DNA of 32,368 nt from Actinomycetota bacterium (GTDB lineage Bacteria; Actinomycetota; Actinomycetes; Actinomycetales; Microbacteriaceae), in the NCBI GenBank assembly GCA_020161315.1, contig JAIUOH010000035.1:1-32368 (forward strand), in the 5' to 3' direction. The notes beneath the pieces are model-generated. The model was given only the letters and a program-made list of their open reading frames with translations. It made no database searches and had not been told where the DNA came from. A program made the translations under genes and the position numbers. Below are positions 13,877 through 32,368 of this stretch, one piece after another. Position 1 is the stretch's first letter; each line of letters begins with the position of its first letter.

Positions 13877-13896
13877 CCGACACGGCGCGCCGCTAT

Positions 13897-13925
13897 TTGA
13901 CCGGTTTGGTTCAATGCGGTAAAGT
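13897..13925 (+). promoter_or_regulatory. rplU-rpmA promoter
   Basis: TTGACC (13897-13902), a 17-base spacer and TAAAGT (13920-13925) form the best sigma-70-type promoter seen in the window. It predicts a leader of about 115 bases before the L21 start at 14047, long enough for ribosomal-protein feedback control. No known leader motif was recognised in it. Confidence 0.7.
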
Positions 13926-14046
13926 TGACCGTTGGTGCCACTCGTTTGTTGGGTGGTAATGCGCGCGGCGAAAGCCAGCGTGCTCATCGGTTTCGGCGGG
14001 GTTCCGCTGGTAGCAGTAGATCGTTTCGAAAGAAAAAGGTAGACAA

Positions 14047-14355
14047 GTGGTTTTCGCAGTAGTGCGCACAAGCGGTCGTCAGGAGAAGGTCGAGGTTGGC
14101 TCGATCATCACCGTGAACCGTGTCTCGGGTGACGACAAGGGCAAGATCGAGCTTCCGGCTGTGCTGCTCGTCGATGGCGATACGGTCACCACTGACCCCG
14201 CAAAGCTTGCAAAGGTGAAGGTTATCGCTGAGGTACTCAACGACCTCCGTGGCCCGAAGATCATCATCCAGAAGTACAAGAACAAGACCGGTTACAAGAA
14301 GCGCCAGGGCCACCGTCAGGACCTGACCCGCCTCAAGGTCACTGGCATCAAGTAA
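14047..14355 (+). CDS. rplU: 50S ribosomal protein L21
   Basis: A 102-residue L21 that binds 23S rRNA. The family pattern is clear from [15 protein letters not shown] through the C-terminal [18 protein letters not shown], which contains the conserved GHRQ. GTG 14047 gives the N-terminus [12 protein letters not shown], close to the usual MYAVIRTGGKQ; AAAAAGGTAGACAA precedes it. rpmA follows 35 bases later in the standard order. Confidence 0.97.
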
Positions 14356-14390
14356 CCCGTTTCGGGCACTTACCTAAGGAGTAGAGACTC

Positions 14391-14645
14391 ATGGCACATA
14401 AAAAGGGCGCGAGCTCGACCCGTAACGGTCGCGACTCGAATGCACAGCGTCTTGGCGTAAAGCGCTTCGGCGGCCAGCAGGTGAACGCAGGCGAGATCAT
14501 CGTTCGCCAGCGCGGCACCCACTTTCACCCTGGCGTGAATGTTGGCCGTGGCGGTGACGACACCCTGTTCGCTCTCGCAGCCGGCGCGGTTGAATTCGGC
14601 GCAAAGGGCGGCCGCAAGGTTGTTAACATCGTCGCTGCTGCGTAA
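14391..14645 (+). CDS. rpmA: 50S ribosomal protein L27
   Basis: An 84-residue L27, located near the peptidyl-transferase centre. It begins directly with [16 protein letters not shown] and has [11 protein letters not shown] and [20 protein letters not shown], typical of the family. The N-terminus lacks the cleavable extension found in Firmicutes. The start is preceded by AAGGAG. A hairpin terminator follows the stop. Confidence 0.98.
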
Positions 14646-14654
14646 GTAGTCGAC

Positions 14655-14693
14655 AACAGCAAGGCGGGCTTCGGCTCGCCTTTTGCTGTTTTC
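14655..14693 (+). terminator. rpmA terminator
   Basis: An outer stem AACAGCAA with TTGCTGTT and an inner stem GGCGGGC with GCTCGCC (one G-T pair, loop TTCG) are separated by a two-base TT bulge. The hairpin ends in TTTT, fitting intrinsic termination. Confidence 0.8.
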
Positions 14694-14702
14694 GGAGGCT
14701 AT

Positions 14703-14720
14703 CGTGGGTTGAGACCCACG
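14703..14720 (+). other. Short perfect hairpin upstream of obgE
   Basis: CGTGGGT (14703-14709) pairs with ACCCACG (14714-14720) around TGAG. It lies between the rpmA terminator and the obgE start, 37 bases before the GTG. It has no T-run, so it may be a leader or mRNA-end structure of obgE. Confidence 0.4.
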
Positions 14721-14756
14721 GCTTTCGAGAACAAATTTCTGAAAAGGGGATGCGGC

Positions 14757-16262
14757 GTGGTTACATTCGTCGATCAGGTGCGCGTGCATCTGCAGGCCGG
14801 TCGCGGCGGAAACGGCTGTGTGTCGGTTCGTCGTGAAAAGTTCAAGCCACTCGCAGGCCCCGACGGCGGCGCCGGTGGTCACGGCGGAGACATCGTGATC
14901 CTCGCCGACCCGCAGATCACGACGCTGCTCGACTATCACCGTCGCGCGCACCGCAACGCCGAGAATGGCGGCTATGGCGCTGGCGGGTACCGCGATGGCA
15001 CCGAGGGTGCCGAGATGGTGCTGCGCGTGCCGATCGGCACCGTGGTCAAGAGCGAGGCAGGCGAGGTGCTTGCCGACCTCACCGAAGCGGGCACGCGATA
15101 CCTCGCAGCAAAGGGCGGCGTCGGTGGCCTCGGCAACAATGCGCTCGCGAGCCCGAAGCGCAAGGCACCAGGCTTTGCGCTCCTTGGCACCGAGGGCAAA
15201 CAGGCCACGCTGACTCTCGAACTGAAGACCATTGCCGACGTCGCGCTCGTTGGCTTCCCCTCTGCAGGCAAGTCGAGCCTGATCGCTGCCCTGAGCGCGG
15301 CCCGACCCAAGATTGCCGACTACCCGTTCACCACTCTGCACCCCAACCTTGGGGTCGTTGAGGTGGGAGATCACCGCTACACCGTCGCCGATGTGCCCGG
15401 TCTCATCGAGGGCGCGAGCGAGGGCAAGGGTCTCGGTCTCGACTTCTTGCGCCACGTCGAGCGCTGCAGCGCACTGCTGCATGTGCTCGATTGCGCAACC
15501 CTCGAGCCAGGTCGCGACCCGCTCTCTGACCTCGAAGTGATTCGCAAGGAGCTCGCTGCGTACCCGGTTCCAGAGGGGCAGACGCCGCTGCTTGAGCGCC
15601 CGCAACTCGTCGCGCTCAACAAGGTTGACGTGCCAGAGGCGCGCGAGCTCGCTGACTTCGTGCGGGCCGACCTCGAGGCGCAGGGCTACCGTGTCTTCGA
15701 GATCTCGGCGACCTCGCACGAGGGCCTGCGCCAGCTGAGCTTTGCACTTGGTGGGCTTGTAGATGCGGCTCGCGCAGAGGCTGCGATCACGCTCGAAGAG
15801 TCGCCGCGCATCGTATTGCGACCCAAGGCCGTGAACGACAGCGGGTTCCGCGTCGCGACTGAGGGTGGCAGCTACGGTACCCTCTACCGTATTCTCGGCG
15901 AGAAGCCCGAGCGCTGGGTTGAGCAGACCGACTTCACGAATGACGAGGCCGTCGGGTATCTCGCCGACCGGCTGCAGAAGATCGGCATCGAAGACGCACT
16001 GGTCAAGGCAGGTGCAACCGCTGGTTCGACCGTCGTGATCGGCCCGGGCGCAGGCGTGGTCTTTGATTGGGAGCCCACGGTAACGTCTGCTGCCGAGGTG
16101 CAGGTGGGTAACCGTGGCAGCGATCCTCGTATCGACGGCTCGGATCGCCGCACCAACCACGAGCGACGTAAGCAGTACCACGAGCGCATGGACGCGAAGG
16201 CTGAGGCTCGTGCAGAGCTGCAGCGCGAGCGCGAGGCCGGCATGTGGAGCGAGGAGCAGTGA
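14757..16262 (+). CDS. obgE: Obg-family GTPase
   Basis: A 501-residue cytosolic GTPase that binds the 50S subunit and links ribosome assembly to growth. The N-terminal glycine-rich Obg fold (about 1-160: [39 protein letters not shown]) is followed by the G domain with G1 [11 protein letters not shown], switch [10 protein letters not shown]3 [16 protein letters not shown] and G4 NKVD. The C-terminal OCT domain (about 360-440) and a charged tail ([17 protein letters not shown]) complete the actinobacterial form. GTG 14757 ([12 protein letters not shown]) has AAGGGGA six bases upstream; the longer frame from 14709 has no such support. The TGA overlaps the proB GTG. Confidence 0.97.
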
Positions 16263-17044
16263 GCGTAGGCGCTGCGCTGCCGCGCTTTGCCGGCAAACGC
16301 GTGGTGGTGAAGGTCGGCTCTTCTTCGGTGAGCGGTGAGAACGCCGCCCAAATTCCGCACCTTGTCGACTCGCTTGCCCGACTGCACGCGGCTGGTAGCG
16401 AAGTAATACTCGTATCGAGCGGTGCGATCGCAACGGGCGTGCCTTTTTTGCGCCTTGGCGAGCGACCCGATGATCTTGCTACTCAGCAGGCGGCGGCGGC
16501 GGTCGGCCAGAACATCTTGGTGAATCGCTACCAGCGTGCACTCACGGTGCACGAGATCATTGCAGGCCAGGTGTTGCTCACCGCGGGCGATATGGAGAAC
16601 GATACGCACCGCATCAACGCGAAGCGGGCACTCGAGCGATTGCTGCAGCTTGGTATCTTGCCGATCATCAACGAGAACGACACTGTAGCGACTCACGAGA
16701 TTCGTTTCGGCGACAACGACCACCTTGCGGCGCTGGTCGCCAAACTCGTCGGGGCAGACCAACTCGTGTTGCTCTCAGATGTCGACGCGCTGTATACGGC
16801 ACCGCCGCAGCTTCCTGGGGCCACAAGGATCGCGCATGTCGCCTATGGAGATGCTCTCGCGGGCGTCGAGATCGGTGCCACCCAGTCTGGCTGGGGCACC
16901 GGTGGTGCGGCCACGAAGGTGCAAGCGGCGCGCCTTGCCGCCGATGCAGGAACCGCAGTGTTGCTGACCGAGACGCGTTTGCTCGCGGCAGTGCTCGACG
17001 GTGAACCGCACGGCACTCACTTCGAGGCGGCACCTCGCCCGTAG
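16259..17044 (+). CDS. proB: Glutamate 5-kinase, AAK domain only
   Basis: The first enzyme of proline synthesis, phosphorylating glutamate to gamma-glutamyl phosphate. The 261 residues cover the amino-acid-kinase fold: [22 protein letters not shown], the [20 protein letters not shown] active-site segment, [11 protein letters not shown] and [17 protein letters not shown]. The C-terminal PUA domain of E. coli ProB (367 aa) is absent, and the stop is clean. The GTG at 16259 overlaps the obgE stop (GTGA), indicating translational coupling. proA follows 20 bases downstream, giving the first two steps of the pathway in order. Confidence 0.95.
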
Positions 17045-17052
17045 TCGGTCAC

Positions 17053-17067
17053 TATGCTTGGTGCATG
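17053..17067 (+). promoter_or_regulatory. Possible leaderless promoter of proA
   Basis: TATGCT (17053-17058) is followed by six bases and then the proA ATG at 17065. This is the same geometry as at polA and the recombinase leader. No SD precedes the ATG. It may add to read-through from proB. Confidence 0.4.
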
Positions 17068-18315
17068 AGCACTGACGCATTTCTCGACAAACTCGCGCGC
17101 GCACGGTCGGCATCACGGGGGCTTGCCACCGCAACCACCGCGCAGAAGAATGCTGCGCTTGCTGCGATTGCCGACGCCATCGAGGGTGCAATTCCCGAGA
17201 TTGTTGCAGCGAACGCACTCGACCTTGAACGGGGGCGTAGCGAACAGATCGGAGACGGCCTGCTCGATCGGCTGCTGCTCGATGAAGCTCGGCTGAAGGG
17301 ACTTGCAAACGCTGTTCGTGACGTCATTGGCATCGCTGACCCGGTCGGTGAGGTGGTGCGAGGCAGCACCCTCGCGAACGGGGTGCAGCTGACCCAGGTG
17401 CGAGTGCCTTTTGGTGTGGTCGGTGCCATCTACGAGGCTAGGCCGAATGTCACCGTCGATATCGCAGCTCTCGCGCTCAAGAGCGGCAACGGTGCGGTGC
17501 TGCGTGGCGGCACCGCTGCCGAGAACTCGAACCGGGTACTTGTCGAGTTGATTCAGCGCGCGATCAGCAGCACCGACCTTGACGGTGACGTGGTGCAGAC
17601 GATCGATGAGTTCGGTCGCGAGGGCGCCGCTCGCCTCATGCGGGCGCGTGGCTACATCGATGTGCTGATCCCACGTGGCTCTGCCGGGCTGATCTCTGCT
17701 GTGGTGCAGGAGTCGACGGTGCCCGTGATTGAAACCGGCTCGGGGCTCGTGCATGTCTTCGTCGATGCGAGCGCCGACGAAGCCAAGGCGCTCGCCATCG
17801 TCAAGAATTCGAAGACTCACCGCCCGAGCGTCTGCAACGCCGCCGAAACGCTGCTCGTGCACCGTGAAGCTGCCGGCCGGCTCCTGCCGAAGCTTGCAAT
17901 GGTGCTGCTCGACGAACAGGTCTCGCTATACGGAGATACCAGATCTCGCTCGCTCGCTGCGGGCATCGCAGAGGCCGCTGATGAAGTGTGGTCGACCGAG
18001 CACCACGCACTCGAGATGGGTGTGAAGATCGTCGACTCGCTCGACGATGCGCTCGAGCACATTGAGCGTTACTCGACCAGGCATACCGAGTCGATTGTGA
18101 CCGAGGACTACCAGAACGCGCAGCGTTTTCTCGCAGAGGTCGACTCTGCAGTGGTAATGGTGAACGCTTCGACGCGGTTTACCGACGGTGGAGAATTTGG
18201 GTTCGGGGCAGAAGTGGGTATCTCAACTCAGAAGCTGCATGCCCGCGGGCCGATGGGGTTGCCCGAACTGACGAGCACAAAGTGGCTCGTGCGCGGCAAC
18301 GGCCAAATTCGGTGA
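17065..18315 (+). CDS. proA: Glutamate-5-semialdehyde dehydrogenase (gamma-glutamyl phosphate reductase)
   Basis: A 416-residue NADPH-dependent reductase that converts gamma-glutamyl phosphate to glutamate semialdehyde, the second step of proline synthesis. It belongs to the aldehyde dehydrogenase superfamily. Visible are VRVPFGVVGAIYEARPNVTV, LRGGTAAENSN, the DVLIPRGSAGLI segment, the catalytic-cysteine region KTHRPSVCNAAETLLVH and TRFTDGGEFGFGAEVGIST near the C-terminus. Length and termini are normal. ATG 17065 (MSTDAFLDKLARARSASRGL) is the only sensible start. Confidence 0.97.
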   Translation: MSTDAFLDKLARARSASRGLATATTAQKNAALAAIADAIEGAIPEIVAANALDLERGRSEQIGDGLLDRLLLDEARLKGLANAVRDVIGIADPVGEVVRGSTLANGVQLTQVRVPFGVVGAIYEARPNVTVDIAALALKSGNGAVLRGGTAAENSNRVLVELIQRAISSTDLDGDVVQTIDEFGREGAARLMRARGYIDVLIPRGSAGLISAVVQESTVPVIETGSGLVHVFVDASADEAKALAIVKNSKTHRPSVCNAAETLLVHREAAGRLLPKLAMVLLDEQVSLYGDTRSRSLAAGIAEAADEVWSTEHHALEMGVKIVDSLDDALEHIERYSTRHTESIVTEDYQNAQRFLAEVDSAVVMVNASTRFTDGGEFGFGAEVGISTQKLHARGPMGLPELTSTKWLVRGNGQIR

Positions 18316-20389: not shown

Positions 20390-20797
20390 GTGACTGTAAC
20401 TGACCAGACCCTTGAGAGCCTTCGCATTGCGGTGCGAGCTGCTGACGGCAAGGGAGCAACCACACCGGTTGCGCTGAGCGTAAGCGAGCTGTTTCCGCTC
20501 GCAGACGCATTCTTGATTCTCACCGGTAGCGTCGAGCGCAACGTGCAGGCGATCTCTGATGAGGTTGAAGACGAGCTTAACCGGGCTGGTGTGCGCACTA
20601 TTCGCCGTGAAGGGCGCGAGAGTGGCCGCTGGGTGCTGCTTGATTTTGGCGACCTGATCGTGCACGTGTTTCACCAGGAAGAGCGCGAGTTCTACGGGCT
20701 CGAACGCCTCTGGAAGGATTGCCCTGCGATCGACATCGCATCGATGATCGAGGCCCCCGCGAATTTGCAAGTGTCCGCCCTTGATGGTGTAGAGTAG
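20390..20797 (+). CDS. rsfS: Ribosome silencing factor RsfS
   Basis: A 135-residue member of the RsfS/Iojap family, which binds ribosomal protein L14 and blocks subunit joining in starvation. Conserved features are FPLADAFLILTGSVERNVQAI, RREGRESGRWVLLDFGDLIVHVFH and ERLWKDCPAID. GTG 20390 begins MTVTDQTLESLRIAV, two bases after the preceding stop; AAGAG is a weak SD. nadD and rsfS are neighbours in many bacteria. The antisense reading frame of the downstream integrase runs through the last 200 bases of this gene. Confidence 0.95.
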   Translation: MTVTDQTLESLRIAVRAADGKGATTPVALSVSELFPLADAFLILTGSVERNVQAISDEVEDELNRAGVRTIRREGRESGRWVLLDFGDLIVHVFHQEEREFYGLERLWKDCPAIDIASMIEAPANLQVSALDGVE

Positions 20798-22613
20798 AGG
20801 GGTTGTCGGGGGAGCATTCTTCCGACTTCCACGGGTCTGTGGCGCAGTTGGTAGCGCACCTGCATGGCATGCAGGGGGTCAGGGGTTCGAATCCCCTCAG
20901 ATCCACCCTAGGTGAGAAATTCGAAACTTCTCCCAAACGCACGCCGATTTCGGCGATGATCGAACCTTCGGTCGTCACCGGATCGGCGTTATTTTGTTGT
21001 GTCGCATAGGTTTTTGCGGCGCTCACTGCTTTGGTCGGTTCGTAGCTGATGTTCTCATCTTCGTCGATCACGATTTTCTTGACGACCGCTCGCACCAAAA
21101 TTTGGCGTGCAGAGGGCTCGCACTTGCGATAGAGATCACCCAAATCGGTGATCAGATCAGCAAGCTGATCAAGCCCTTCCCGCGCCTCTGCATAGGTTGA
21201 ACTGAGGCTATCAAGTCGGTGCTTCACCCTATCAAGAGTCCGGGTAATTCGGGCCTGCTCAGTCTTCATGAGGTCGAGCGGGATCGCATCAGCGTAGTGA
21301 GCTTGAACGAGCTTGAGACGCTCGGCTTCAAGCTTCTCGATTTGACCTACGAGTAGCTTCCGTTCGTCGTCGGTGCTTGCTTCGAGCTGGTCAAACACCT
21401 TCCCGAGCACTGCACGAGTCTGGGTTGCTTCTTCAGTGCTCAGGCCATTTTGCCCAAATGTGGCCTCGACCTCACGTTCGATCCGGTCGATCATTATTGC
21501 GGAGCGCGTGCAGCCGTTCTTTTTGCGGCGACCAGAGCAGGTGAAGTATTCGTAGCGTTCGCCCTGCTTGTCTCGTGGGCACTCGATCATGAGCTTCGCG
21601 CCGCATGAGCAATACACGCTGCCCTTGAGGTAGTGATCGTACTTCTGAGGTCGTTCACCGACGTTGTTTTTCTCGCTGAGATGCATTTGCACACGCAGCC
21701 AGGTTTCCTGATCAACGAGTGGAGTATGTGCACCCTCGTAGGTGACGCCTCGGAACACGACGGTGCCCTGGTAGTAGGGGTTCGTGAGAATCTTGTGAAG
21801 CGCGGTCGTTGACAACGGCTTTGCAGCGCGGGCAGGTGTTGGCCGGGAAGTGAGCCCACGGGTTTCCAACACCTTTGCGAGGGTGGAGAGCGACCAATCT
21901 CCGGTTGAGTATGCAGTGAATGCGAAACGGATCAGTTCGCTTCTCTCGCGGTCTACTTCGATATCGCGTACTTCGCGGCCTTGATCGTCGGTAGTGCGTA
22001 CGTTCAAGTATCCAAGCGGTGCCATCATCGGGGTGCCACCGATTGACGCCTTCTGGGTCATACCCTTCAATACCTCTTGCGCGAGGTTGAGCGAATAGAA
22101 CTCGGCGATCGATGCGAGAATGCCATGCATGAGCATGCCAGAGGGGGTCTCGTCGATGTTCTCGGTGACCGAGACAAGGCTGATGTTCGCGGCTCGCAGT
22201 GTGGAATGGATAATCGCGTCATCGAGGCGGTTGCGTGCGAGTCGATCAACCTTGTTGATGATGCAGTATCGAACCGGGTTATTGGCAACATAGTCAAGCA
22301 TCTGCTGCAGCGCTCGACGCCGGACTGTCTTTGCTGATTCACCGGGCTCAATGAACTCTTTCACGATTACGGCCCCAAGCTGATCGGCCTTTCGCTGGGC
22401 AGCTTCTCGCTGGGCCGGTATCGAGAGGCCTTCTTCGAGACCGTTTCGCGTAGCCTGATCTTTGGTGGAGACGCGGAGGTAGATGATTGCTGGCACGAGA
22501 TCGCCAAGATCTCCGAGCGCATCTTCCTCAGCGTTTGGGTAGCCGCCGGAGGTCACCGCCATTTTTCTGAGCGTGCCTAGATCAAGGTCTGCAGGTGCGT
22601 CGGAGATCGACAT
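20598..22613 (-). CDS. Large serine recombinase (integrase), C-terminus read through into tRNA/rsfS antisense
   Basis: A 671-codon frame. The resolvase catalytic domain (about residues 38-190) has the serine motif IIYLRVSTKDQ, the RRALQQMLDYV helix, KVDRLARN and the LASIAEFYS segment. A recombinase domain follows (LGYLNVRT, ILTNPYYQGTVVFRG), then a zinc ribbon (CSCGAKLMIECPRD and the later FTCSGRRKKNGC) and a coiled coil (about 395-490). These are the hallmarks of phage/ICE large serine integrases. ATG 22613 (MSISDAPADLDLG) with GAAAGGCGG upstream is preferred over TTG 22637. After about residue 568 the frame reads antisense tRNA-Ala (DLRGFEPLTP) and antisense rsfS for about 100 codons, so the true functional end is probably near the tRNA boundary. 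Confidence 0.9.
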   Translation of the reverse strand: MSISDAPADLDLGTLRKMAVTSGGYPNAEEDALGDLGDLVPAIIYLRVSTKDQATRNGLEEGLSIPAQREAAQRKADQLGAVIVKEFIEPGESAKTVRRRALQQMLDYVANNPVRYCIINKVDRLARNRLDDAIIHSTLRAANISLVSVTENIDETPSGMLMHGILASIAEFYSLNLAQEVLKGMTQKASIGGTPMMAPLGYLNVRTTDDQGREVRDIEVDRERSELIRFAFTAYSTGDWSLSTLAKVLETRGLTSRPTPARAAKPLSTTALHKILTNPYYQGTVVFRGVTYEGAHTPLVDQETWLRVQMHLSEKNNVGERPQKYDHYLKGSVYCSCGAKLMIECPRDKQGERYEYFTCSGRRKKNGCTRSAIMIDRIEREVEATFGQNGLSTEEATQTRAVLGKVFDQLEASTDDERKLLVGQIEKLEAERLKLVQAHYADAIPLDLMKTEQARITRTLDRVKHRLDSLSSTYAEAREGLDQLADLITDLGDLYRKCEPSARQILVRAVVKKIVIDEDENISYEPTKAVSAAKTYATQQNNADPVTTEGSIIAEIGVRLGEVSNFSPRVDLRGFEPLTPCMPCRCATNCATDPWKSEECSPDNPSTLHHQGRTLANSRGPRSSMRCRSQGNPSRGVRARRTRALPGETRARSGRQNQAAPSGHSRALHGE
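20765..20795 (+). promoter_or_regulatory. Possible tRNA-Ala promoter
   Basis: TTGCAA (20765-20770) and TAGAGT (20790-20795) are separated by 19 bases, inside the rsfS 3' end, about 38 bases before the tRNA. The spacing is long, so support is modest. Confidence 0.35.
20833..20905 (+). tRNA. tRNA-Ala (anticodon GGC)
   Basis: A 73-base tRNA. The acceptor GGGTCTG pairs with CAGATCC and includes the G3-U70 alanine identity pair. The anticodon loop ATGGCAT gives GGC (reads GCC), the T-arm is GGGG-TTCGAAT-CCCC, and the discriminator is A20905. CCA is not encoded (ACCC follows). The serine-integrase frame enters from the 3' side, so this tRNA end is the probable attachment site of the element to the right. 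Confidence 0.97.
20880..20945. other. Probable attachment-site junction of the serine-integrase element
   Basis: The left element boundary should lie around the tRNA-Ala 3' half or just after it. The sequence changes here from core genes to an element gene on the opposite strand. An imperfect palindrome centred on TTCGAA (GAGAAATTCGAAACTTCTC, about 20914-20932) follows the tRNA. I saw no second copy of the tRNA 3' end inside the window, so the other att site is outside it or lost. Confidence 0.5.
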
Positions 22614-22750
22614 GAGGTGACCGCCTTTCGGATCCAAAATATTGAGTCGTCTTGGTCAGCTGGCGGTCACGTTAGTTGTAAGAAGGACACTCGCAATGAG
22701 CTTAGAAAGTTTGCCACTGAAGCCGTGTTTGTATTGGTGTAAGCCAAATT
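22614..22750. other. Intergenic gap in the element, nothing recognised
   Basis: A 137-base AT-richer gap upstream of the integrase. It presumably holds the integrase promoter on the minus strand. A 23-codon plus-strand ORF (ATG at about 22694) has no support. Confidence 0.3.
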
Positions 22751-24082: not shown

Positions 24083-25867
24083 TCAGTCGTCAGAAGCAGG
24101 TTTCAGCAGCAGCGTTTCGATTTCGTTGCGTTCTCGTTGCAGAGCTTTCGCGTCGGGGCGCTTGGGCCACGGATGCAGATCTGTAATGATGGGCGGGGCT
24201 GAACGCAGCAGCACGACACCGGTGCCAAACGGGATCGTACGAATACGGTCGGGCGGCAGAATCGGCACACGACGCACAGAGCGCTGGCTCGTGCGTGAGC
24301 CGTAATCGCCAAAACTTACTGAGTCAGTAAACTCATCCCGTTCACCAATGAGTGTCGAGAGGTCTTGCAAGTCACGCGAATTTGACGCGCCACCGAGCAC
24401 GATCTTTACGATGCTGGCGTCCCAGATGGCGGAGGCCTGATCGTCGCTCCATTTATCTCGTGCCTGCGCGAGTGACTGCAGTACGGGCATTGTTGTGATG
24501 CCCGTACCGCCACCTTCTGCCATCAGCGTCGGCAGCGAAGGCAACGGTGCGAGGTTGCCGATCTCGTCGAGTGCCAACAGCACGGGCGGGTCAAGTCGGG
24601 CACCGGGTGAGCGTGCCGCAATACGACGGCATGTCTCCACAAGATCCTCAACGAGTGCAGCAACCAGTGCGGCGCTATTGCCAGCACCAGCCCCGGTGGC
24701 CAGCAAGTACAGTGTGCCCTTGTTTCGAATGAATACTTCGGGGTCAAACGTTTCATCCTCTGTGGGGCTCACCGCGTCGAGCACGCGTGGGTCAGCCAGG
24801 GCAGCAAGTGCGAGTGAGACACCTTGCCAAATGGAGTCCCGGGTACGCGGGTCTGCTTCGATCATTGCCTCCAGCGAATCTGCCCACCCCGTTGCCGCTC
24901 GCGTGGAGGCGTGCAGAATTGCGACGGCGTCTGCTGCCGCTGACGGGTCGAGAGTCCAACGAAACAGTTCTGCAGGGCTGCGACCATCGAGTGCGGCAGC
25001 GTGCAGCAGTGCTTGAAGTGCGACACGGGTTTTTCCTTCCCAAAACCCTCCACCGTCAACACCGCCGTCGCCAAGTCCGGTGGCTGCAGCGAGCCCGGTG
25101 GCGCGGATCATTGCGGTGAGTGGATCCTCACATCCACGAATTGGCGACCAACGGAGCCCTGCAACTACGCCCTCGGCGAGGTGTTGGGGGTCAAACACCA
25201 TCACCGGGCCGACTTGTTCTCGTGCACGCAGCGTTGCAGTGAGATTATCTGGCCGTGTCGAAGTTGTCACTACTGCACCGGGCGCATCAAGAATCGCCGG
25301 AATCACCACATGTAGCCCTTTCCCTGAGCGGGGTGGCCCGATGAGCAAGATTGAATCTTCAACGCTCGCCCACACGTCTTTGCCCCTAGATTGCCCAAGT
25401 AGGTACCCGATATCTGCTGGTGTCGGGTGTTCGAGCGATGGCCGTAGCGTTCCGGCCCTGAGTACCAGAGACCTCGCAGAGGCCGCGGTGCGCACTTCGT
25501 GAGCTGTCGCAACCCCAACGAGTCTGCGCGGGTCAGTGTCAATCTTGCGCGAATGCCGAGAGCAGAGACTCCACACCCAGACGGTCACAGCACTCAAACC
25601 ACTGAGCATGACAGCTGTAACCACCCAGTAGGCGAACGGGTTCAAATCTTCAGTTCCGAGTGCAGCGCCGGGGTCCCCAGGCGTGAATAGGACGTTCACA
25701 CCACCCGCGATACCGGCCTGTGGCGGGTCGCTGCTCATGATGAATGCGGTGACTGTTCCGGCTGCGCGAAGCACGAGTGCGAGCCCGAAGAGTCCGATGA
25801 GTGTTGCAAGCATGATGTTGGTGAGTTCGTCTCCGAGCGCACCAGTTTGTCGGTTCGTTGGTTTCAT
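24083..25867 (-). CDS. Type IV secretion coupling protein, VirD4/TraG family
   Basis: A 594-residue hexameric ATPase family member that brings the relaxase-DNA complex to a type IV secretion channel. Two N-terminal transmembrane helices (about 17-43 and 80-105) are followed by an ATPase domain with Walker A LLIGPPRSGKG (about 173-183), VFDPQHL, and Walker B VLLALDEIGN (about 430-440) followed by the LPTLMAEGGGTGI motif of the family. The late segments VKIVLGGASNSRDLQDLS and TRPDN-type motif also fit TraG/TraD. The gene is full length. The start ATG 25867 overlaps the preceding gene stop (ATGA). No relaxase or channel genes are in the window, so it may be orphaned. Confidence 0.92.
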   Translation of the reverse strand: MKPTNRQTGALGDELTNIMLATLIGLFGLALVLRAAGTVTAFIMSSDPPQAGIAGGVNVLFTPGDPGAALGTEDLNPFAYWVVTAVMLSGLSAVTVWVWSLCSRHSRKIDTDPRRLVGVATAHEVRTAASARSLVLRAGTLRPSLEHPTPADIGYLLGQSRGKDVWASVEDSILLIGPPRSGKGLHVVIPAILDAPGAVVTTSTRPDNLTATLRAREQVGPVMVFDPQHLAEGVVAGLRWSPIRGCEDPLTAMIRATGLAAATGLGDGGVDGGGFWEGKTRVALQALLHAAALDGRSPAELFRWTLDPSAAADAVAILHASTRAATGWADSLEAMIEADPRTRDSIWQGVSLALAALADPRVLDAVSPTEDETFDPEVFIRNKGTLYLLATGAGAGNSAALVAALVEDLVETCRRIAARSPGARLDPPVLLALDEIGNLAPLPSLPTLMAEGGGTGITTMPVLQSLAQARDKWSDDQASAIWDASIVKIVLGGASNSRDLQDLSTLIGERDEFTDSVSFGDYGSRTSQRSVRRVPILPPDRIRTIPFGTGVVLLRSAPPIITDLHPWPKRPDAKALQRERNEIETLLLKPASDD

Positions 25868-26409: not shown

Positions 26410-26671
26410 GCGACGTAGGTGCGCTTACTTTCCCAGACGGCATTCACCGAGCTGTGTTGCCTGCCGTGGAAGGCTTTGCACTGCAGAAATTGGTGCGTTA
26501 CTGAATCTCTATGCGTTGAAGTTCCCGACCCGGTTCTGTGCCCCAGCGGCCTCGCTTCCCTTGTGGTTGCAAGTTCCCGTCACGCCTGACGCAAAATGAA
26601 AAACCTTCACTCTCAATGACGGTTCGTCGGTACGATTGACGTATGGTCGCCTCTCGTGAACTGCCGGGGTC
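26410..26671. other. Junction between two elements, no gene recognised
   Basis: A 262-base gap. Composition changes here from the moderate-GC minus-strand element to very GC-rich plus-strand genes. It contains a possible promoter and leader ORF for the recombinase at its right end (26631-26675). Small ORFs reading across it are not convincing. The exact boundary is not visible. Confidence 0.5.
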
Positions 26672-26675
26672 ATGA
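26631..26675 (+). promoter_or_regulatory. Putative -10 and 10-codon leader ORF overlapping the recombinase start
   Basis: TACGAT (26631-26636) is followed by six bases and ATG 26643, which opens MVASRELPGS and stops at TGA 26673-26675. That TGA overlaps the recombinase ATG (26672) as ATGA. The layout suggests a leaderless leader peptide coupled to the recombinase. Confidence 0.4.
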
Positions 26676-27751
26676 AGCTCGTCGCGCTGCGTGGCGGCGC
26701 TGCCGACGAGGTGCTGCGGACTGCCCAGGACGCGGAGGACTTCGAGCAGGAGATCGTTGACGAGCACGCGATCGCGATGGCTGCCGCTGGCCTCAGCGAC
26801 GGCCATATCCAGGGCACCCGCCGGATCATCATCGAGTTCGCCCGTTCGCTGACGGGCCCGTTGTGGGAGGCGGGCTGCGCCGACGCGGACGCGTTCCTGG
26901 CCGAGCAGCGGCGCATGGGCCACGCGGTGAGCACGCGGGCGGGCAAGGCCGGGGCGCTGGCGCAGTTCTACGAGTTCGTCATCGCCCGCTATCAGGGCCA
27001 GATTCACCGCATGACCGGGGTGGTGGTCGAGCAGCCCATTGATGACTTCAACCGGCAGTCCGGTGCGTCGCTGGGCAAGGTGCGCGTGCCGCCGTCCGAT
27101 GACGAGGTCGACGCGCTGTTCACGGGCTGGCGGCAGTCGATCCCGGACGCGCGGAAGTATCTCCCGGCCGCGCGTGACTACTTCGCCGCGTCGTTGTGGC
27201 GGCGGGTCGGGGTGCGGATCAACGAGACGGTGATGCTCGACATCCGCGACTGGCGGCCCGACCTCGGCGGGCTAGGGAAGCTGCATGTGCGGTTCGGGAA
27301 GGGCTCGCACGGGCGCGGCTTCAAGGCCCGCCTGGTGCCCGCGATCAACGGGGCCGACCAGCTCATCGACTGGTGGCTGGCCGAGGTGCGTCACCAGTTC
27401 GGCGACGACTGGGTCAACCCGGATGCGCCGATGCTGCCCTCCGAACGGTTCGATGAGGACCTGGGGCGCTGCGCCAGAGTGAGCGACTACTCGCTGCGGC
27501 GCGGCCTGACAATCCAGACCGAGCGGTTCCTGCCCGCGTGGGCGGGCCGGTTGACGCCTCATGTGCTGCGGCATTACTGCGCCTCGTCTCTGTATGGGAG
27601 CGGGATGGACTTGAAAGCGATCCAAGAGCTGCTGGGCCACCAGTGGCTGTCCACGACGTCGGGGTATGTCCACGTGCGTAGCGAGCATGTCGAGCTGGCC
27701 TGGCGCAACGCCAACCAGCGGGTCGAGGCCCGCTTCGCGGAAGAAAGGTGA
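26672..27751 (+). CDS. Tyrosine recombinase, catalytically intact
   Basis: A 359-residue site-specific recombinase. The N-terminal SAM-like DNA-binding part (about 30-125) precedes the catalytic domain, where the full set is seen: R182 (GVRINE), K210 (RFGKGSHGRG), H297 and R300 (TPHVLRHYCAS), H323 (LLGHQW) and nucleophile Y332 (TTSGYVHV). The order and spacing are normal. The start ATG 26672 follows CCGGGG and overlaps a short leader ORF. The HTH gene starts seven bases after the stop. Together with the following two genes it makes a mobile-element module whose sizes resemble TnpA, TnpC and TnpB of Tn554; this similarity is from memory. Confidence 0.92.
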   Translation: MKLVALRGGAADEVLRTAQDAEDFEQEIVDEHAIAMAAAGLSDGHIQGTRRIIIEFARSLTGPLWEAGCADADAFLAEQRRMGHAVSTRAGKAGALAQFYEFVIARYQGQIHRMTGVVVEQPIDDFNRQSGASLGKVRVPPSDDEVDALFTGWRQSIPDARKYLPAARDYFAASLWRRVGVRINETVMLDIRDWRPDLGGLGKLHVRFGKGSHGRGFKARLVPAINGADQLIDWWLAEVRHQFGDDWVNPDAPMLPSERFDEDLGRCARVSDYSLRRGLTIQTERFLPAWAGRLTPHVLRHYCASSLYGSGMDLKAIQELLGHQWLSTTSGYVHVRSEHVELAWRNANQRVEARFAEER

Positions 27752-27758
27752 ATCGCCT

Positions 27759-28085
27759 GTGCAATGGAATTTGAGAATGCGAGCCGCCGAGCGCGGCATC
27801 TGGAAGTCCGCCGAGATGCGCCGCCGCCTCGCCGCGGCAGGACTGGAGATCAGCGCCGGGAAGATGTCGGGCTGGTGGGCCGGAACCCCCGCGACGATCC
27901 GTCTGGAAGAGCTCGACGTGCTCTGCTCGATCCTCGACTGCGCACCCTCTGACCTGATGACTCCCGAGCCCCAGAAGGTTGCGGCGAGGCGTCCGAGACA
28001 GGCCGAGACGGTGGGCGGTGAGAAGGAGGTCGGCCCGACGGTCTCGCCCCGCTTCGGTAAGCCCCGTTCCGAGCCGCCGCTGTGA
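27759..28085 (+). CDS. Small HTH protein between the two recombinase genes
   Basis: A 108-residue protein. Residues about 5-60 look like a Cro/C1-type helix-turn-helix (ERGIWKSAEMRRRLAAAGLE, then SAGKMSGWWAGTPATIRLEE and LDVLCSILDCAPSDLM). The C-terminal 45 residues are basic and probably disordered. The GTG start 27759 follows AGAAAGG and lies seven bases after the recombinase stop. The end overlaps the next gene as GTGA. It may regulate the operon or act as an accessory DNA-binding factor in recombination, comparable in size to TnpC of Tn554. An in-frame ATG at 27666 lies inside the recombinase gene and is rejected. Confidence 0.8.
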   Translation: MQWNLRMRAAERGIWKSAEMRRRLAAAGLEISAGKMSGWWAGTPATIRLEELDVLCSILDCAPSDLMTPEPQKVAARRPRQAETVGGEKEVGPTVSPRFGKPRSEPPL

Positions 28086-29842
28086 GTCCAGCGCCGGGGC
28101 CGGAAGCGCGGCTGCGGGTACCGCCCTTGTGCAACCGCTGCCAGGTCAACCGCGTCGCGTGGAGCAAGCCCCGCATCGACTTCTGCTACGACTGCATGCC
28201 CGGAGGCCCGTTCCCGCCGCCACCCTGCGAGATGTGCGGAACGACCACCGACTACTTCAGCCAGGGCCTGTGCCAGCGCTGCCACCCGCGCAGCCCCCAC
28301 AAGGTCGGCTCCTGCAAGAGCTGCCTCGCGTGGGGCGTGTATCCGCAGCACAACTGGATGTGCTGGTCGTGCCGCTGGTGGCAGACCCACTACCCGAAAG
28401 GGGTCTGCAACTACTGCCATCGCGATACCTGGATCGGTGACCGGGGTGCGTGCCGTCTTTGCCTCGAACAGGCCCGGATGCTCCAAGAGCCCGGCCGCGC
28501 CCTCGACCTCGCGGGCGCGAACAAACACGGCCAGCAGCTCTTCTTCGCGAACATGCACTTTCAGCGCCGCCGTACTCCGCGCCTCAAGCCTGCGAACGGG
28601 TGGAAGACGCCCGGCGGGTGGGGTCGCCCCGGCCCGCCGCCGAAGAAGCTCGCTCTGACCGAGTGGGTGCAGCCCGTCCTCATCGACGTCGCCCCTGACC
28701 CCGAGCTGCTGCTCCAGCGCGCCCTGATCGAGAACAGCGAGCTGACCCGATACTGCAACGCGATCGTGCACGAGCACGCCGAACAGTTCGGCTGGTCTGT
28801 CCGCCAACGCAACGACGTGATCCGTTCCCTGCGCCTGCTGCAGACCCTCCGCGACAGCCCGACCGCGAAGATCCGCGCCTCCGACGTGCTCCAACTCCCA
28901 CGCTATGACGGCAACATCGTCTCCACCCTCGACGTGCTCGACGCCGCCGGGCTGCTCATCGATGACCGGCCCCGCTGGATCGACACCTACTTCGCGAACA
29001 AGACGTCGCTGCTGCCACAGGTGATGCAGGAGCAGCTCGAGGTCTGGGTGAACGTCATGATCGACGGAGCGACGGCCGCGCCCCGGCAGCGCTCCCGCGA
29101 CCCGCTGACCGTGAAAGTCCATATCCACGCCGTCGTGCCGGCCGTGACCGCGTGGGCCGAGGCCGGCCATCAGTCGCTCGCCGAGATCAGCCCCGCTCAG
29201 ATTCGTGACGTGCTGCCCGAGAGCGGGAACCCGCGTGCGCTCATGGAGCGTGGCCTGCGGTCGCTGTTCAAGGTACTCAAAGCTCGCAGGCTCGTCTTCC
29301 AGAACCCCACCCGCGGCATGACGTTCACCAAGGTCAACGGCAACATCCCGATGCCGCTGGACACCGCGCTCATCCGCGAGAAACTGAACTCGCCCCACCC
29401 CGTGATCGCGTTGGCCGTCGCTCTCGTTGCGTTCCACGCCCTGACCGCGAAACAGGTCTCCGAGCTGCTGCTCACCGACATCGTCGACGGGCGATTGAAC
29501 GTCGCAGGCCGGAGCATCCCGCTCGCCGCTCCCGTCCGCGAACGCCTCGCCCGATGGCTCGACTACCGCCAGAACAGATGGCCGAACTCGCAGAACCCGC
29601 ACCTCATCATCCACCAGCGCTCCGCGCCCAGGATGATGGCCGCGAACCGAACCTACCCCTGGCAGCAGGCCGGCATCCGCCCGCAGGCCCTCCGCGAAGA
29701 CCGCATCCTCGCCGAAGCCCACGCCACCCGCGGCGACGCCCGCGCGATCAGCGACCTCTTCGGCCTCAGCATCGCCGGCACCGACCGCTACATCGACACC
29801 CTCGCACACCCCGACCTCACCACCAGCGACCAGCCAGGGTGA
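28082..29842 (+). CDS. Cys-rich zinc-ribbon protein with degenerate tyrosine-recombinase domain
   Basis: A 586-residue protein. Residues 17-127 hold eight CxxC pairs (C17/20, 35/38, 49/52, 64/67, 78/81, 94/97, 109/112 and 124/127), enough for four zinc ribbons. Residues about 330-570 look like a tyrosine recombinase: an N-terminal core-binding-like part and a C-terminal part (TAKQVSELLLTDI, RPQALREDR, GTDRYIDTL). The catalytic set is incomplete: Gln458 replaces the first Arg, Gln535 the first His and Leu562 the second His, while Arg538 and Tyr570 remain. It is probably a non-catalytic partner that binds DNA or targets. GTG 28082 overlaps the upstream stop (GTGA). Confidence 0.8.
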   Translation: MSPAPGPEARLRVPPLCNRCQVNRVAWSKPRIDFCYDCMPGGPFPPPPCEMCGTTTDYFSQGLCQRCHPRSPHKVGSCKSCLAWGVYPQHNWMCWSCRWWQTHYPKGVCNYCHRDTWIGDRGACRLCLEQARMLQEPGRALDLAGANKHGQQLFFANMHFQRRRTPRLKPANGWKTPGGWGRPGPPPKKLALTEWVQPVLIDVAPDPELLLQRALIENSELTRYCNAIVHEHAEQFGWSVRQRNDVIRSLRLLQTLRDSPTAKIRASDVLQLPRYDGNIVSTLDVLDAAGLLIDDRPRWIDTYFANKTSLLPQVMQEQLEVWVNVMIDGATAAPRQRSRDPLTVKVHIHAVVPAVTAWAEAGHQSLAEISPAQIRDVLPESGNPRALMERGLRSLFKVLKARRLVFQNPTRGMTFTKVNGNIPMPLDTALIREKLNSPHPVIALAVALVAFHALTAKQVSELLLTDIVDGRLNVAGRSIPLAAPVRERLARWLDYRQNRWPNSQNPHLIIHQRSAPRMMAANRTYPWQQAGIRPQALREDRILAEAHATRGDARAISDLFGLSIAGTDRYIDTLAHPDLTTSDQPG

Positions 29843-29924
29843 CGCCGCCGCGCCGGGTCGATTCCGGCCCCAGGGTCGTGCTCTCGCGGACGGTCAGGAG
29901 CCAGGTGCAACGGTGGCCGATCCG
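29843..29924. other. Gap between convergent genes
   Basis: An 82-base gap between the zinc-ribbon protein stop and the ATPase stop. I see no strong terminator hairpin or T-run. Confidence 0.3.
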
Positions 29925-31841
29925 TCACAGATCTGCGGTGGCGCGGCTCGTGCGGGCGGCGCGGAGCCCGTTGAGGATGACGATCACCTCAGCGATCTCG
30001 TGCACCAGCACCACCGCGGCCAGACCCAGGACACCGAACAGGGCGAGCGGGAGCAGCACGACGATGATCATGAGCGACAGGATGATGTTCTGGTTCATGA
30101 TGTGCCTGCCGCGGCGGGCGTGAGCGAACGCGCGCGGCAAGAGGCGCAGGTCGTGACCGGTGAACGCGACGTCGGCGGACTCGATCGCGGCATCGGAACC
30201 TGTCGCGCCCATCGCGATGCCGATATCCGAGGCGGCCAGTGCAGGGGCGTCGTTGATGCCGTCACCGATCATCGCGACCGAGCCGTGCCTGCCCAGCTCG
30301 CTGATCGCGGCGGCCTTGTCCTCCGGGCGCAGCTCGGCGCGCACGTCCTCGATCCCGGCCTGCGCGGCCAGCGCGCGGGCGGTGCGGGCGTTGTCACCGG
30401 TGAGCATGGTCGCCCCGACACCCTGGGTCGCGAGGGTGCGCACGACCTCTGGGACCTCGGGGCGCAGCTCGTCGCGGACCCCGATCGCGGCGACCGGGAG
30501 TCCGTCGCGGTGCACGATGACGACGGTCATGCCCTGCTCCTCCAAGCCGGCGACCTGGTCCTTGAGCGTCCCTGCGTCCAGCCAGCGGGGGCTGCCGACG
30601 GTGACCTGGGCCCCGTCGAGGGTGCCTTCGATGCCGTGCCCGGCCTGCTCGGTGACGTCCAAGGCGGCGGGGGCTCCGGGTGAGGCGGCGGTGATCGCGG
30701 CGGCCAGCGGGTGGGTGCTGTGCTGCTCCAGGGATGCCGCCCAGGCCAGGGCCTGCGCCTCGTCCACCCCGTCGGCGGTGAGAACGGCGGTGACGGCGGG
30801 CTCGTTGCGTGTGAGGGTGCCGGTCTTGTCGACGGCGACGTGGCGGATCACGCCGAACCGCTCGAACACGGCACCGGACTTGATGATCACGCCGAGCCGG
30901 CTCGCCGAGCCGATCGCGGCGACGACGGTCAGCGGGACGGAGATCGCCAGCGCGCACGGCGACGCGGCGACGAGCACCACGAGCGCGCGGGTGATCCACA
31001 GCCCCGGGTCGCCCAGCAGCGAGCCGATCAGCGCGACGAGAGCAGCGAGGATCAGCACGCCAGGCACGAGCGGCCGGGCGATGCGGTCGGCCAGGCGGGC
31101 GCGGTCGCCCTTCTCGGTCTGCGCCTGCTCCACCAGCTCCACGATCGTGGTCAGCGAGTTGTCGGTACCCGCCGCGGTCGTCTCGACCTCCAGGGCACCG
31201 GCGGTGTTGATCGCCCCGGCCGACACCGCATCGCCGGGCTCGACTTCCACCGGGATGGACTCGCCCGTGATCGCGGAGGTGTCCAGGCTCGACCGGCCCG
31301 TGCGGACGATCCCGTCGGTCGCAATCCGCTCACCCGGACGCACCAGCATCAGCTGACCAACGGCCAGGTCCTTTGCGGCGACCTCCACGGACGCGCCATC
31401 CCGCCGGATGGTCGCGGTCTCCGGGACCAGCTTGAGCAGCGCCCGCAGCCCGCCGCGGGCGCGGTCCATCGCCTTGTCCTCCAACGCCTCGGCGATCGAG
31501 TACAAGAACGCCAACGCCGCGGCCTCCCCGACGTAGCCGAGGATGACCGCGCCGATCGCGCTGATCGTCATCAGCAGCCCGATGCCCAGCTTGCCCTTGA
31601 GCAGCTTGCGGATCGCGCCCGGGGTGAACGTCGACGCGCCCAGCAGCAGGCCGATCCAGAACGCCACCAGTGCCGGGATCTCCGCCCCTGCCCATTCCAG
31701 GACCAGACCGGTGCCGAAGGCGACGCCGGAGAACACCGGGACCATGACCCCGCTGTCCCGCCACCACGGACGCTCCCGCCCTTCCTCGGCCTCCTCAACG
31801 ATCAGAGTGTCGGGCTCGTCGCAGCCGCACGCCGCGCTCAC
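29925..31841 (-). CDS. P1B-type heavy-metal efflux ATPase (CtpG-like)
   Basis: A 638-residue P-type ATPase that would export a soft or transition metal across the cytoplasmic membrane. It has TGES (actuator), the membrane SPC metal-site motif in VLVAASPCALAISVP, phosphorylation site DKTGTLT, HP locus STHPLA, and GDGINDAPAL. About eight transmembrane helices are visible. There is no N-terminal heavy-metal-associated domain; instead a short CGC motif lies near residues 5-7. The last helix has VHEIAEVIVILNGLR, near the HEGGT-type motif of P1B-4 pumps but divergent. GTG 31841 overlaps the cmtR TGA (GTGA). Pairing with CmtR suggests Cd/Pb or a related metal, as for CtpG of M. tuberculosis; the substrate is not proven. 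Confidence 0.9.
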   Translation of the reverse strand: MSAACGCDEPDTLIVEEAEEGRERPWWRDSGVMVPVFSGVAFGTGLVLEWAGAEIPALVAFWIGLLLGASTFTPGAIRKLLKGKLGIGLLMTISAIGAVILGYVGEAAALAFLYSIAEALEDKAMDRARGGLRALLKLVPETATIRRDGASVEVAAKDLAVGQLMLVRPGERIATDGIVRTGRSSLDTSAITGESIPVEVEPGDAVSAGAINTAGALEVETTAAGTDNSLTTIVELVEQAQTEKGDRARLADRIARPLVPGVLILAALVALIGSLLGDPGLWITRALVVLVAASPCALAISVPLTVVAAIGSASRLGVIIKSGAVFERFGVIRHVAVDKTGTLTRNEPAVTAVLTADGVDEAQALAWAASLEQHSTHPLAAAITAASPGAPAALDVTEQAGHGIEGTLDGAQVTVGSPRWLDAGTLKDQVAGLEEQGMTVVIVHRDGLPVAAIGVRDELRPEVPEVVRTLATQGVGATMLTGDNARTARALAAQAGIEDVRAELRPEDKAAAISELGRHGSVAMIGDGINDAPALAASDIGIAMGATGSDAAIESADVAFTGHDLRLLPRAFAHARRGRHIMNQNIILSLMIIVVLLPLALFGVLGLAAVVLVHEIAEVIVILNGLRAARTSRATADL

Positions 31842-32197
31842 GCGCCCGCTCCCGTCCCGCAGCAGCCCGGCACCGTGCACTCGGCGTCCACGCACGGCGC
31901 GTGCTCGTCCACGGCCAGCGTCACGTCTACCAGCGCCGTGAGCGCCGCCGCGAGGTGCGGGTCGGCGATCTCGTAGCGCGTCTGCCGACCCTCCGGCTCG
32001 GCGACCACGATCCCGCAATCCCGCAGGCACGTCAGATGGTTCGACACGTTCGACCGCGTCAACTCCAGCTCACGCGAGAGCACCGCCGGGTAGCTCGGCC
32101 CGTCCAGCAGGGTCATCAGGATCCGGGAACGCGTCGGATCCGCCATCGCCCGACCCAGCCGGTTCATGACATCAAGACGCGAAGCAATAGTCAGCAT
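31838..32197 (-). CDS. cmtR: ArsR/SmtB-family Cd(II)/Pb(II) sensor, CmtR-type
   Basis: A 119-residue winged-helix repressor that should release DNA on binding metal. The body closely follows M. tuberculosis CmtR as I recall it: LGRAMADPTRSRILMTLLDG, the recognition helix LTRSNVSNHLTCLRDCG and EGRQTRYEIADPHLA. All three CmtR ligands are present at the same numbers: Cys57, Cys61 and Cys102. The tail adds Cys107, Cys112 and Cys113. The start ATG 32197 has no SD and sits seven bases after a TATAGT -10, suggesting a leaderless message. The TGA overlaps the ATPase start, so the sensor and pump are translationally coupled. Confidence 0.93.
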   Translation of the reverse strand: MLTIASRLDVMNRLGRAMADPTRSRILMTLLDGPSYPAVLSRELELTRSNVSNHLTCLRDCGIVVAEPEGRQTRYEIADPHLAAALTALVDVTLAVDEHAPCVDAECTVPGCCGTGAGA

Positions 32198-32233
32198 GTA
32201 CTGAACTATACAGTAAGCACTGAACTATTATCG
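32198..32233 (-). promoter_or_regulatory. cmtR operator/promoter with repeats
   Basis: On the plus strand, TACTGAACTATACAGTA (32199-32215) is an inverted repeat of TACTG with CAGTA. ACTGAACTAT occurs twice in direct orientation (32200-32209 and 32219-32228), 19 bases apart. The minus-strand -10 TATAGT (plus ACTATA, 32205-32210) lies inside the first copy, so repressor bound here would block cmtR transcription. Confidence 0.65.
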
Positions 32234-32368
32234 ATGATGGTGAACCATGCACCCGCGACCCAGCAGCGGCACTCCCGCCCCCGCGGAGCCCTCACGACAC
32301 CCGCACCGGCGGGCGCGGTACAGTCGCAGAGGAGGCAGTTCCTCGAACATCCACCCGCACCCACACCA
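32234..32368. other. Right edge, no gene assigned
   Basis: A 135-base GC-rich stretch upstream of cmtR. A plus-strand frame from ATG 32237 stays open to the window end but is Pro/Arg-rich without a recognised motif. GAGGA (starting about 32331) with TCCTC forms a small hairpin near the edge. A divergent gene may start here or just outside. Confidence 0.3.

Follow-up and report, generated by a model that had tools for sequence, protein, structure and literature searches.

A three-gene recombination module that probably inserts near the 3' ends of conjugation ATPase genes in Actinomycetota

The DNA analyzed here, one entire contig of 32368 bases from an Actinomycetota bacterium of the Microbacteriaceae (JAIUOH010000035.1; hereafter the window), carries three adjacent plus-strand genes that code for a tyrosine recombinase, a small helix-turn-helix (HTH) protein, and a large cysteine-rich protein. 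This triad lies near the left end of a mobile element that runs to the contig end and comprises the following features.

26504..32368, plus strand: mobile element with a complete left end; 99.898% identity to locus L056 (Leucobacter sp. cx-328), the alignment starting at 26504
26504..26671, plus strand: left terminus AATCTCTA... plus the int leader; TCTCTA-type start like that of other loci
26672..27751, plus strand: catalytic tyrosine recombinase (int, gene 1), 359 residues; PF00589, E 8e-16
27759..28085, plus strand, GTG start: small HTH protein (gene 2), 108 residues; PF13443 HTH_26, E 6e-14 on the longer open reading frame (ORF)
28082..29842, plus strand: putative zinc-ribbon pseudo-recombinase (gene 3), 586 residues; eight CxxC pairs and XerA/XerC-like profile matches
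28130..28462, plus strand: the eight CxxC pairs, residues 17-127; 16 Cys columns kept in 45 sequences with one exception

The right end is placed ~60 bases beyond the contig end by the junction sequence of L056, and the window's own genome holds no other piece of the right junction.

The three-gene core and its recurrence

Gene 1 has the R-K-H-R-H-Y residue set expected of a catalytic tyrosine recombinase, and R182, K210, H297, R300, H323, and Y332 are all invariant across the 22 homologues aligned. A 7-base gap separates int from the HTH gene, which overlaps gene 3 by GTGA at 28082-28085. Searches against PHROGs returned no match for proteins 2 and 3.

The third protein combines two recognizable parts. 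Its eight CxxC pairs recur in every one of 45 homologues, save a single Cys replaced by Arg in one sequence, and presumably form four zinc ribbons. For the C-terminal part, the family profile matches XerA (5hxy, E 9.2e-5) and a XerC-like structure (2.8e-4), and the XerC model is matched by 19 of the 45 members at E ≤0.1 (best 4.2e-9). Pfam matches among these members are much weaker, with the DZR_2 zinc ribbon in five (best 0.0054), Phage_int_M in four (best 0.0082), and Phage_integrase (PF00589) in one (0.064); the window protein itself matches no Pfam family. When proteins 3 and 1 were compared directly by profile, the match was weak (probability 0.9%), although the expected residues fell together in the local alignment. 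R538 and Y570 are retained in all 45 homologues, while three other positions are replaced throughout the family: position 458 is Gln in 37, Glu in six, Arg in one, and Asp in one; position 535 is Gln in 37, Arg in seven, and Met in one; and position 562 is Leu in 29, Ile in 12, Val in three, and Met in one. The first catalytic arginine (R-I) position is Arg in only 1/45, and the H/W position is retained in 0/45. These patterns point to a C-terminus that is related to tyrosine recombinases and catalytically degenerate. Protein 3 may plausibly act as a targeting subunit, or target reader.

A first-pass annotation of this sequence had proposed the gene coordinates, plus strand, 7-base gap, and GTGA overlap, the full catalytic set of the 359-residue recombinase, and the third protein's eight CxxC pairs; each of these was confirmed. 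Its description of the third protein as recombinase-like at the C-terminus, with substitutions at Q458, Q535, and L562, was borne out by the profile matches and by the family-wide replacements. It had also raised two comparisons, the recurrence of the triad as a unit with varied cargo and the alignment of occupied with empty sites; both favored a mobile unit, as described below.

We collected 79 genome loci with gene 3, including 10 pairs whose gene-3 proteins are at least 97% identical. The recombinase gene lies beside or upstream of gene 3 in 75 of these loci and the HTH gene in 76. In 23 loci from plasmids and relatives, partly overlapping the 79, gene 3 is present in 23 (one as a fragment) and genes 1 and 2 in 22 each, one locus having a gene 1 fragment only. 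The triad is uncommon: it was present in 11 of the 199 family genomes sampled and, at E ≤1e-20, in 3 of the 396 sampled across the phylum, the window's own genome counted in both. Two gene-3 relatives (L086 and L087) come from bins labelled Maritimibacter and Acidobacteriota, possibly misbinned actinobacterial contigs.

Element ends and the ATPase target

In most of the loci printed out, the left end has a TCTCTA-type start ~167 bases before int and the flanks outside it differ; distant relatives deviate. In comparisons with eight near relatives, contiguous similarity to the window starts at 26501-26504 for seven and at 26596 for the other one. The window and L056 are 99.9% identical over 5865 bases from 26504 and lie in different flanking DNA, their sole match left of this point being a separate 68% stretch in VirD4. 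An empty and an occupied plasmid show the insertion product: the flanks of the triad in pZXY23 (L016) match an empty Paenarthrobacter ureafaciens plasmid (L053) at 99.3% over 1420 bases and 99.7% over 1333 bases, and the two alignments join at base 5524 of L053, with no target sequence duplicated apart from a single ambiguous base. The left flanks of L121 (97%), L109 (89%), and L127 (89%) match another empty site, L153; L121 and L109 share one element lineage and L127 represents another, and all these matches start within one base of each other. A 3473-base contig (L071) has both termini like those of the bare element of pZXY23. In a set made up of 63 genome loci, 22 further loci (some at identical places), and the window, four loci carry an end-like motif immediately beyond the left end, the pattern that tandem insertions would leave.

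In 48 of the 79 genome loci, a T4SS (type IV secretion system) ATPase gene lies in antisense to the right of the element with its 3' end toward it, at most 140 bases from gene 3 in 18 and beyond cargo in 30; no ATPase match lies in sense or on the left of the triad in any of the 79. The remaining 31 loci comprise 20 with shorter right flanks and 11 with at least 9.9 kb, and coordinates place an antisense ATPase ~9.9-12.7 kb rightward in ten of these 11, provided that the contig numbers refer to identical records. One group of target ATPases matches HerA-like DUF87 and the other matches conjugation ATPase models below cutoff. Aligning the ATPase C-termini revealed a conserved Thr in 47 of 48, L095 having an alignment gap, and in each of the 47 loci that could be aligned the TTC of the element end begins exactly 30 bases after the codon for this Thr. 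A motif search located TTC at this position (+30) in 48/48, L095 included. The right junction is laid out as 18 bases of target, 6 bases, and then the element end, and in 21 of the 48 loci the ninth codon after Thr is a stop supplied at the junction. In triad-free plasmid ATPase genes, TTC at +30 is absent in 5/5.

Across 39 loci (741 pairs), recombinase identity is nearly independent of ATPase identity (r 0.24). The recombinases of L066 and L119 are 96% identical and their ATPases 30%, and those of L102 and L123 are 64% identical with ATPases at 96%. This incongruence, together with the empty site in L053, contradicts a resident conjugation gene set as the sole explanation, that is, a triad that serves the conjugation module (for example, in plasmid dimer resolution or the control of transfer genes) and is merely inherited with it. 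Residence would fit the constant location of the triad next to T4SS genes, both in 48 of the 79 loci and on related Arthrobacter plasmids, but a near-identical conjugation region exists without the triad, the same element occurs in different flanks in the window and L056, and distant relatives lie in Tad loci. We consider it highly improbable. Instead, the triad is very probably the recombination core of a site-specific mobile element that inserts one way near the 3' ends of T4SS ATPase genes of actinobacterial plasmids and integrative and conjugative elements (ICEs). Sequence comparison gives this element defined ends, a near-constant three-gene core, variable cargo, one position and orientation, insertion without duplication, and varied host elements.

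Several observations weigh against a site-specific element of this kind. The 79 loci are not all independent, given the 10 near-duplicate pairs by gene 3. The recombinase gene is missing beside gene 3 in L084, L086, L101, and L111, the HTH gene is missing in the first three of these, and degraded triad copies occur in L010/L014/L015, L037, L101, L111, and L122. No ATPase was found near the right end in L079, with a right flank of at least 9.9 kb, or in L101 and L129, with almost 10 kb. Of 30 ATPase loci of the window's own genus, 18 have TTC at +30 and 12 lack it. At least two of the 18 hold a triad (L135/L188, and L160 of genome G211), and the three that were followed up (L186, equal to L140; L187, equal to L139; and L189, equal to L162) have none between the ATPase and VirD4 genes. 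A palindromic end-like sequence stands at +30 in six own-genus loci (L137 and L139-L143). Distant relatives (L025-L028) are inserted elsewhere.

The TTC without a triad in L186, L187, and L189 may be a scar or a native attachment half-site. The ORF opposite the ATPase region of L187 displays no recombinase or zinc-ribbon pattern by eye. In L186, a 1003-residue surface-protein-like gene (13423-16434, minus strand) lies between the ATPase and VirD4 genes, as does a gene at 16504-17517 (minus strand) that we take, by eye, to be DprA/Smf-like. L025 and L026, distant triads with ~36-37% gene 3 identity, are located in clusters of Tad pilus genes, suggesting that some subfamilies have different targets.

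Host element, cargo, and spread

The window also contains the following features, two of cargo and two of the host element.

29925..32030, minus strand: cargo, heavy-metal P1B-type ATPase; TIGR01512 (cadmium family model) 490.7 bits, cutoff 313.5
31838..32197, minus strand: cargo, ArsR-family repressor, 119 residues; HTH_5, E 1.4e-13
24083..25867, minus strand: VirD4/TraG coupling protein of the host conjugative element; TraG-D_C, E 1e-27
20598..22637, minus strand: large serine recombinase, 679 residues; Resolvase E 2e-28, Recombinase E 2e-11

The genus of the window is very probably Leucobacter, as an own-genus genome (G652) and that of Leucobacter sp. 7(1) (G670) yield the same hit coordinates. 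The left 14 kb of the window is chromosome-like (Lgt, pyruvate kinase, DNA polymerase I, S1 protein, and RNase E/G). Because these genes are followed by the serine recombinase (20.6 kb) and then by VirD4 (24 kb), the window appears to be nested, with a conjugative element in the chromosome and the triad element within it. The 679-residue serine recombinase is the probable integrase of this conjugative element. VirD4/TraG homologues at the triad loci printed out all lie left of the triad and all are antisense.

Such chromosomal loci, with conjugation genes on both sides (VirD4 left, ATPase right), could be read to mean that the triad serves as integrase for the entire ICE and not for a passenger inside it. 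Bare ~3.4 kb copies reside inside circular plasmids, however, the right end maps between cargo and ATPase, and the conjugative element of the window has a large serine recombinase of its own; on these three grounds we rejected the role of ICE integrase, whose probability we hold to be minimal.

As a passenger, the element is variable in content. Its size ranges from ~3.4 kb, as in bare copies on Arthrobacter plasmids that hold three genes and no other cargo, up to roughly 16 kb. Metal ATPase cargo DNA is common to the window, L050 (equal to L021), L046, L048, and L056, and in a Microbacterium relative trxB, trxA, arsC, and ArsR-family regulators adjoin the triad. The window copy is 94-95% identical to copies in one Ruaniaceae and one Propionicimonas genome.

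These data can be assembled into a mechanism. The active recombinase would cut and join around a 6-base core, 18 bases after the conserved Thr codon, and the element would supply a new end to the ATPase gene, preserving its conserved part. The zinc-ribbon pseudo-recombinase would take part in the recombination complex without catalytic activity and assist in reading the target, and the HTH protein could be a regulator or directionality factor. Since the element occupies, in dozens of relatives, a fixed position near the end of a conjugation gene, conjugative DNA can serve it and its metal-resistance cargo as a vehicle, and their location inside conjugation operons would let conjugation carry them along. 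A bolder conjecture, which we hold to be evenly balanced, is that these elements are obligate hitchhikers: the zinc-ribbon protein would recognize the conserved end codons of divergent T4SS ATPase genes, insertion would occur only into conjugative DNA, and diverged subfamilies would have switched to other export machines, Tad pili among them. The element as proposed here would direct metal-resistance genes into conjugative plasmids and ICEs, with no need for self-transfer genes. The element also offers a system for asking how a tyrosine recombinase and a dead paralogue read a target at base resolution, and its right-end signature allows conjugation operons to be annotated readily as occupied, empty, or scarred. 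Among the open-licence PubMed Central (PMC) papers listed by our searches, none describes the triad in its title or the start of its abstract.

Comparison with known systems

Integrases of ICEs and phages use the 3' ends of genes, usually host tRNA or housekeeping genes, and provide a replacement end. The triad element resembles them in 3'-end insertion with a presumed replacement end and differs in that it inserts into a gene belonging to another mobile element.

Tn554 targets att554 in radC, whereas the triad targets the 3' end of the T4SS ATPase gene. The two are alike in the absence of target duplication, reported for Tn554 in a title cited in PMC10214605 and seen here in the L016/L053 pair. 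Actinobacterial Tn554-like recombinase pairs occur on plasmids and chromosomes, both members carrying a potential catalytic motif, according to excerpts of Van Houdt 2012 (PMC3414803). The excerpts also describe a tyrosine recombinase adjoining a large recombinase-related protein, with a small third protein in some sets, an arrangement like that of the triad. Of the triad plasmids, FB24 2, FB24 3, and pTC1 are absent from Table 2 of that paper, and pNOCA01, which is listed there, also holds a distant triad (L025). On pFRP1-2, a relative of the FB24 large recombinase and the triad occupy different places.

The first-pass annotation had called the triad Tn554-like. Insertion without target duplication and a degenerate recombinase partner agree with that description; membership of the Tn554 family, with the gene order rearranged, was not supported. 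It would account for the missing duplication and for a trio of genes, one small, one medium, and one large, and the class is known from the literature for 6-base footprints, with which the 18 + 6 base spacing of the right junction is compatible as spacing alone, the donor origin of the 6 bases being a separate matter. Yet Tn554 has two catalytic recombinases (TnpA and TnpB) and the triad one, the target differs, and an HTH_26 protein, set apart by its Pfam domain only, takes the place of TnpC. Protein 3 of the window, without a Pfam match, also shows no significant similarity to the large recombinase of the Tn554-like pair on FB24 plasmid 1 (best E 0.037, in unrelated stretches), which itself passes PF00589; the first proteins of the triad and of this pair share one 46-residue stretch (E 1e-6). 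We rejected membership, which we judge very unlikely, on account of the single catalytic recombinase, the degenerate zinc-ribbon partner, and the other target.

Two further systems have a degenerate subunit. The SEs of Gammaproteobacteria, as excerpted from PMC10214605, possess an operon with Tfp, a recombinase-fold protein without the catalytic motif, together with two catalytic recombinases and a Srap protein, and show target specificity and a 6-base footprint. The triad likewise has a degenerate recombinase-related subunit in its operon, judged by sequence relation and substitutions, but only one catalytic recombinase and no Srap; zinc ribbons and HTH_26 are not mentioned for SEs in those excerpts. 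The GInts, in the excerpted account of Bardaji 2017 (PMC5385486), are site-specific and comprise four genes, with three integrase-like proteins, variable cargo, and flanking imperfect direct repeats; their GinC is without the first catalytic Arg. Triad elements share with them a recombination operon with variable cargo, a degenerate subunit, and site specificity, and differ in that bare copies hold three genes only, without a second catalytic recombinase or GinD. By this comparison, the triad element appears to work like the Tn554/SE/GInt class, from which it is set apart by its one catalytic recombinase, its zinc ribbons, its HTH_26 partner, and its conjugation-gene target.

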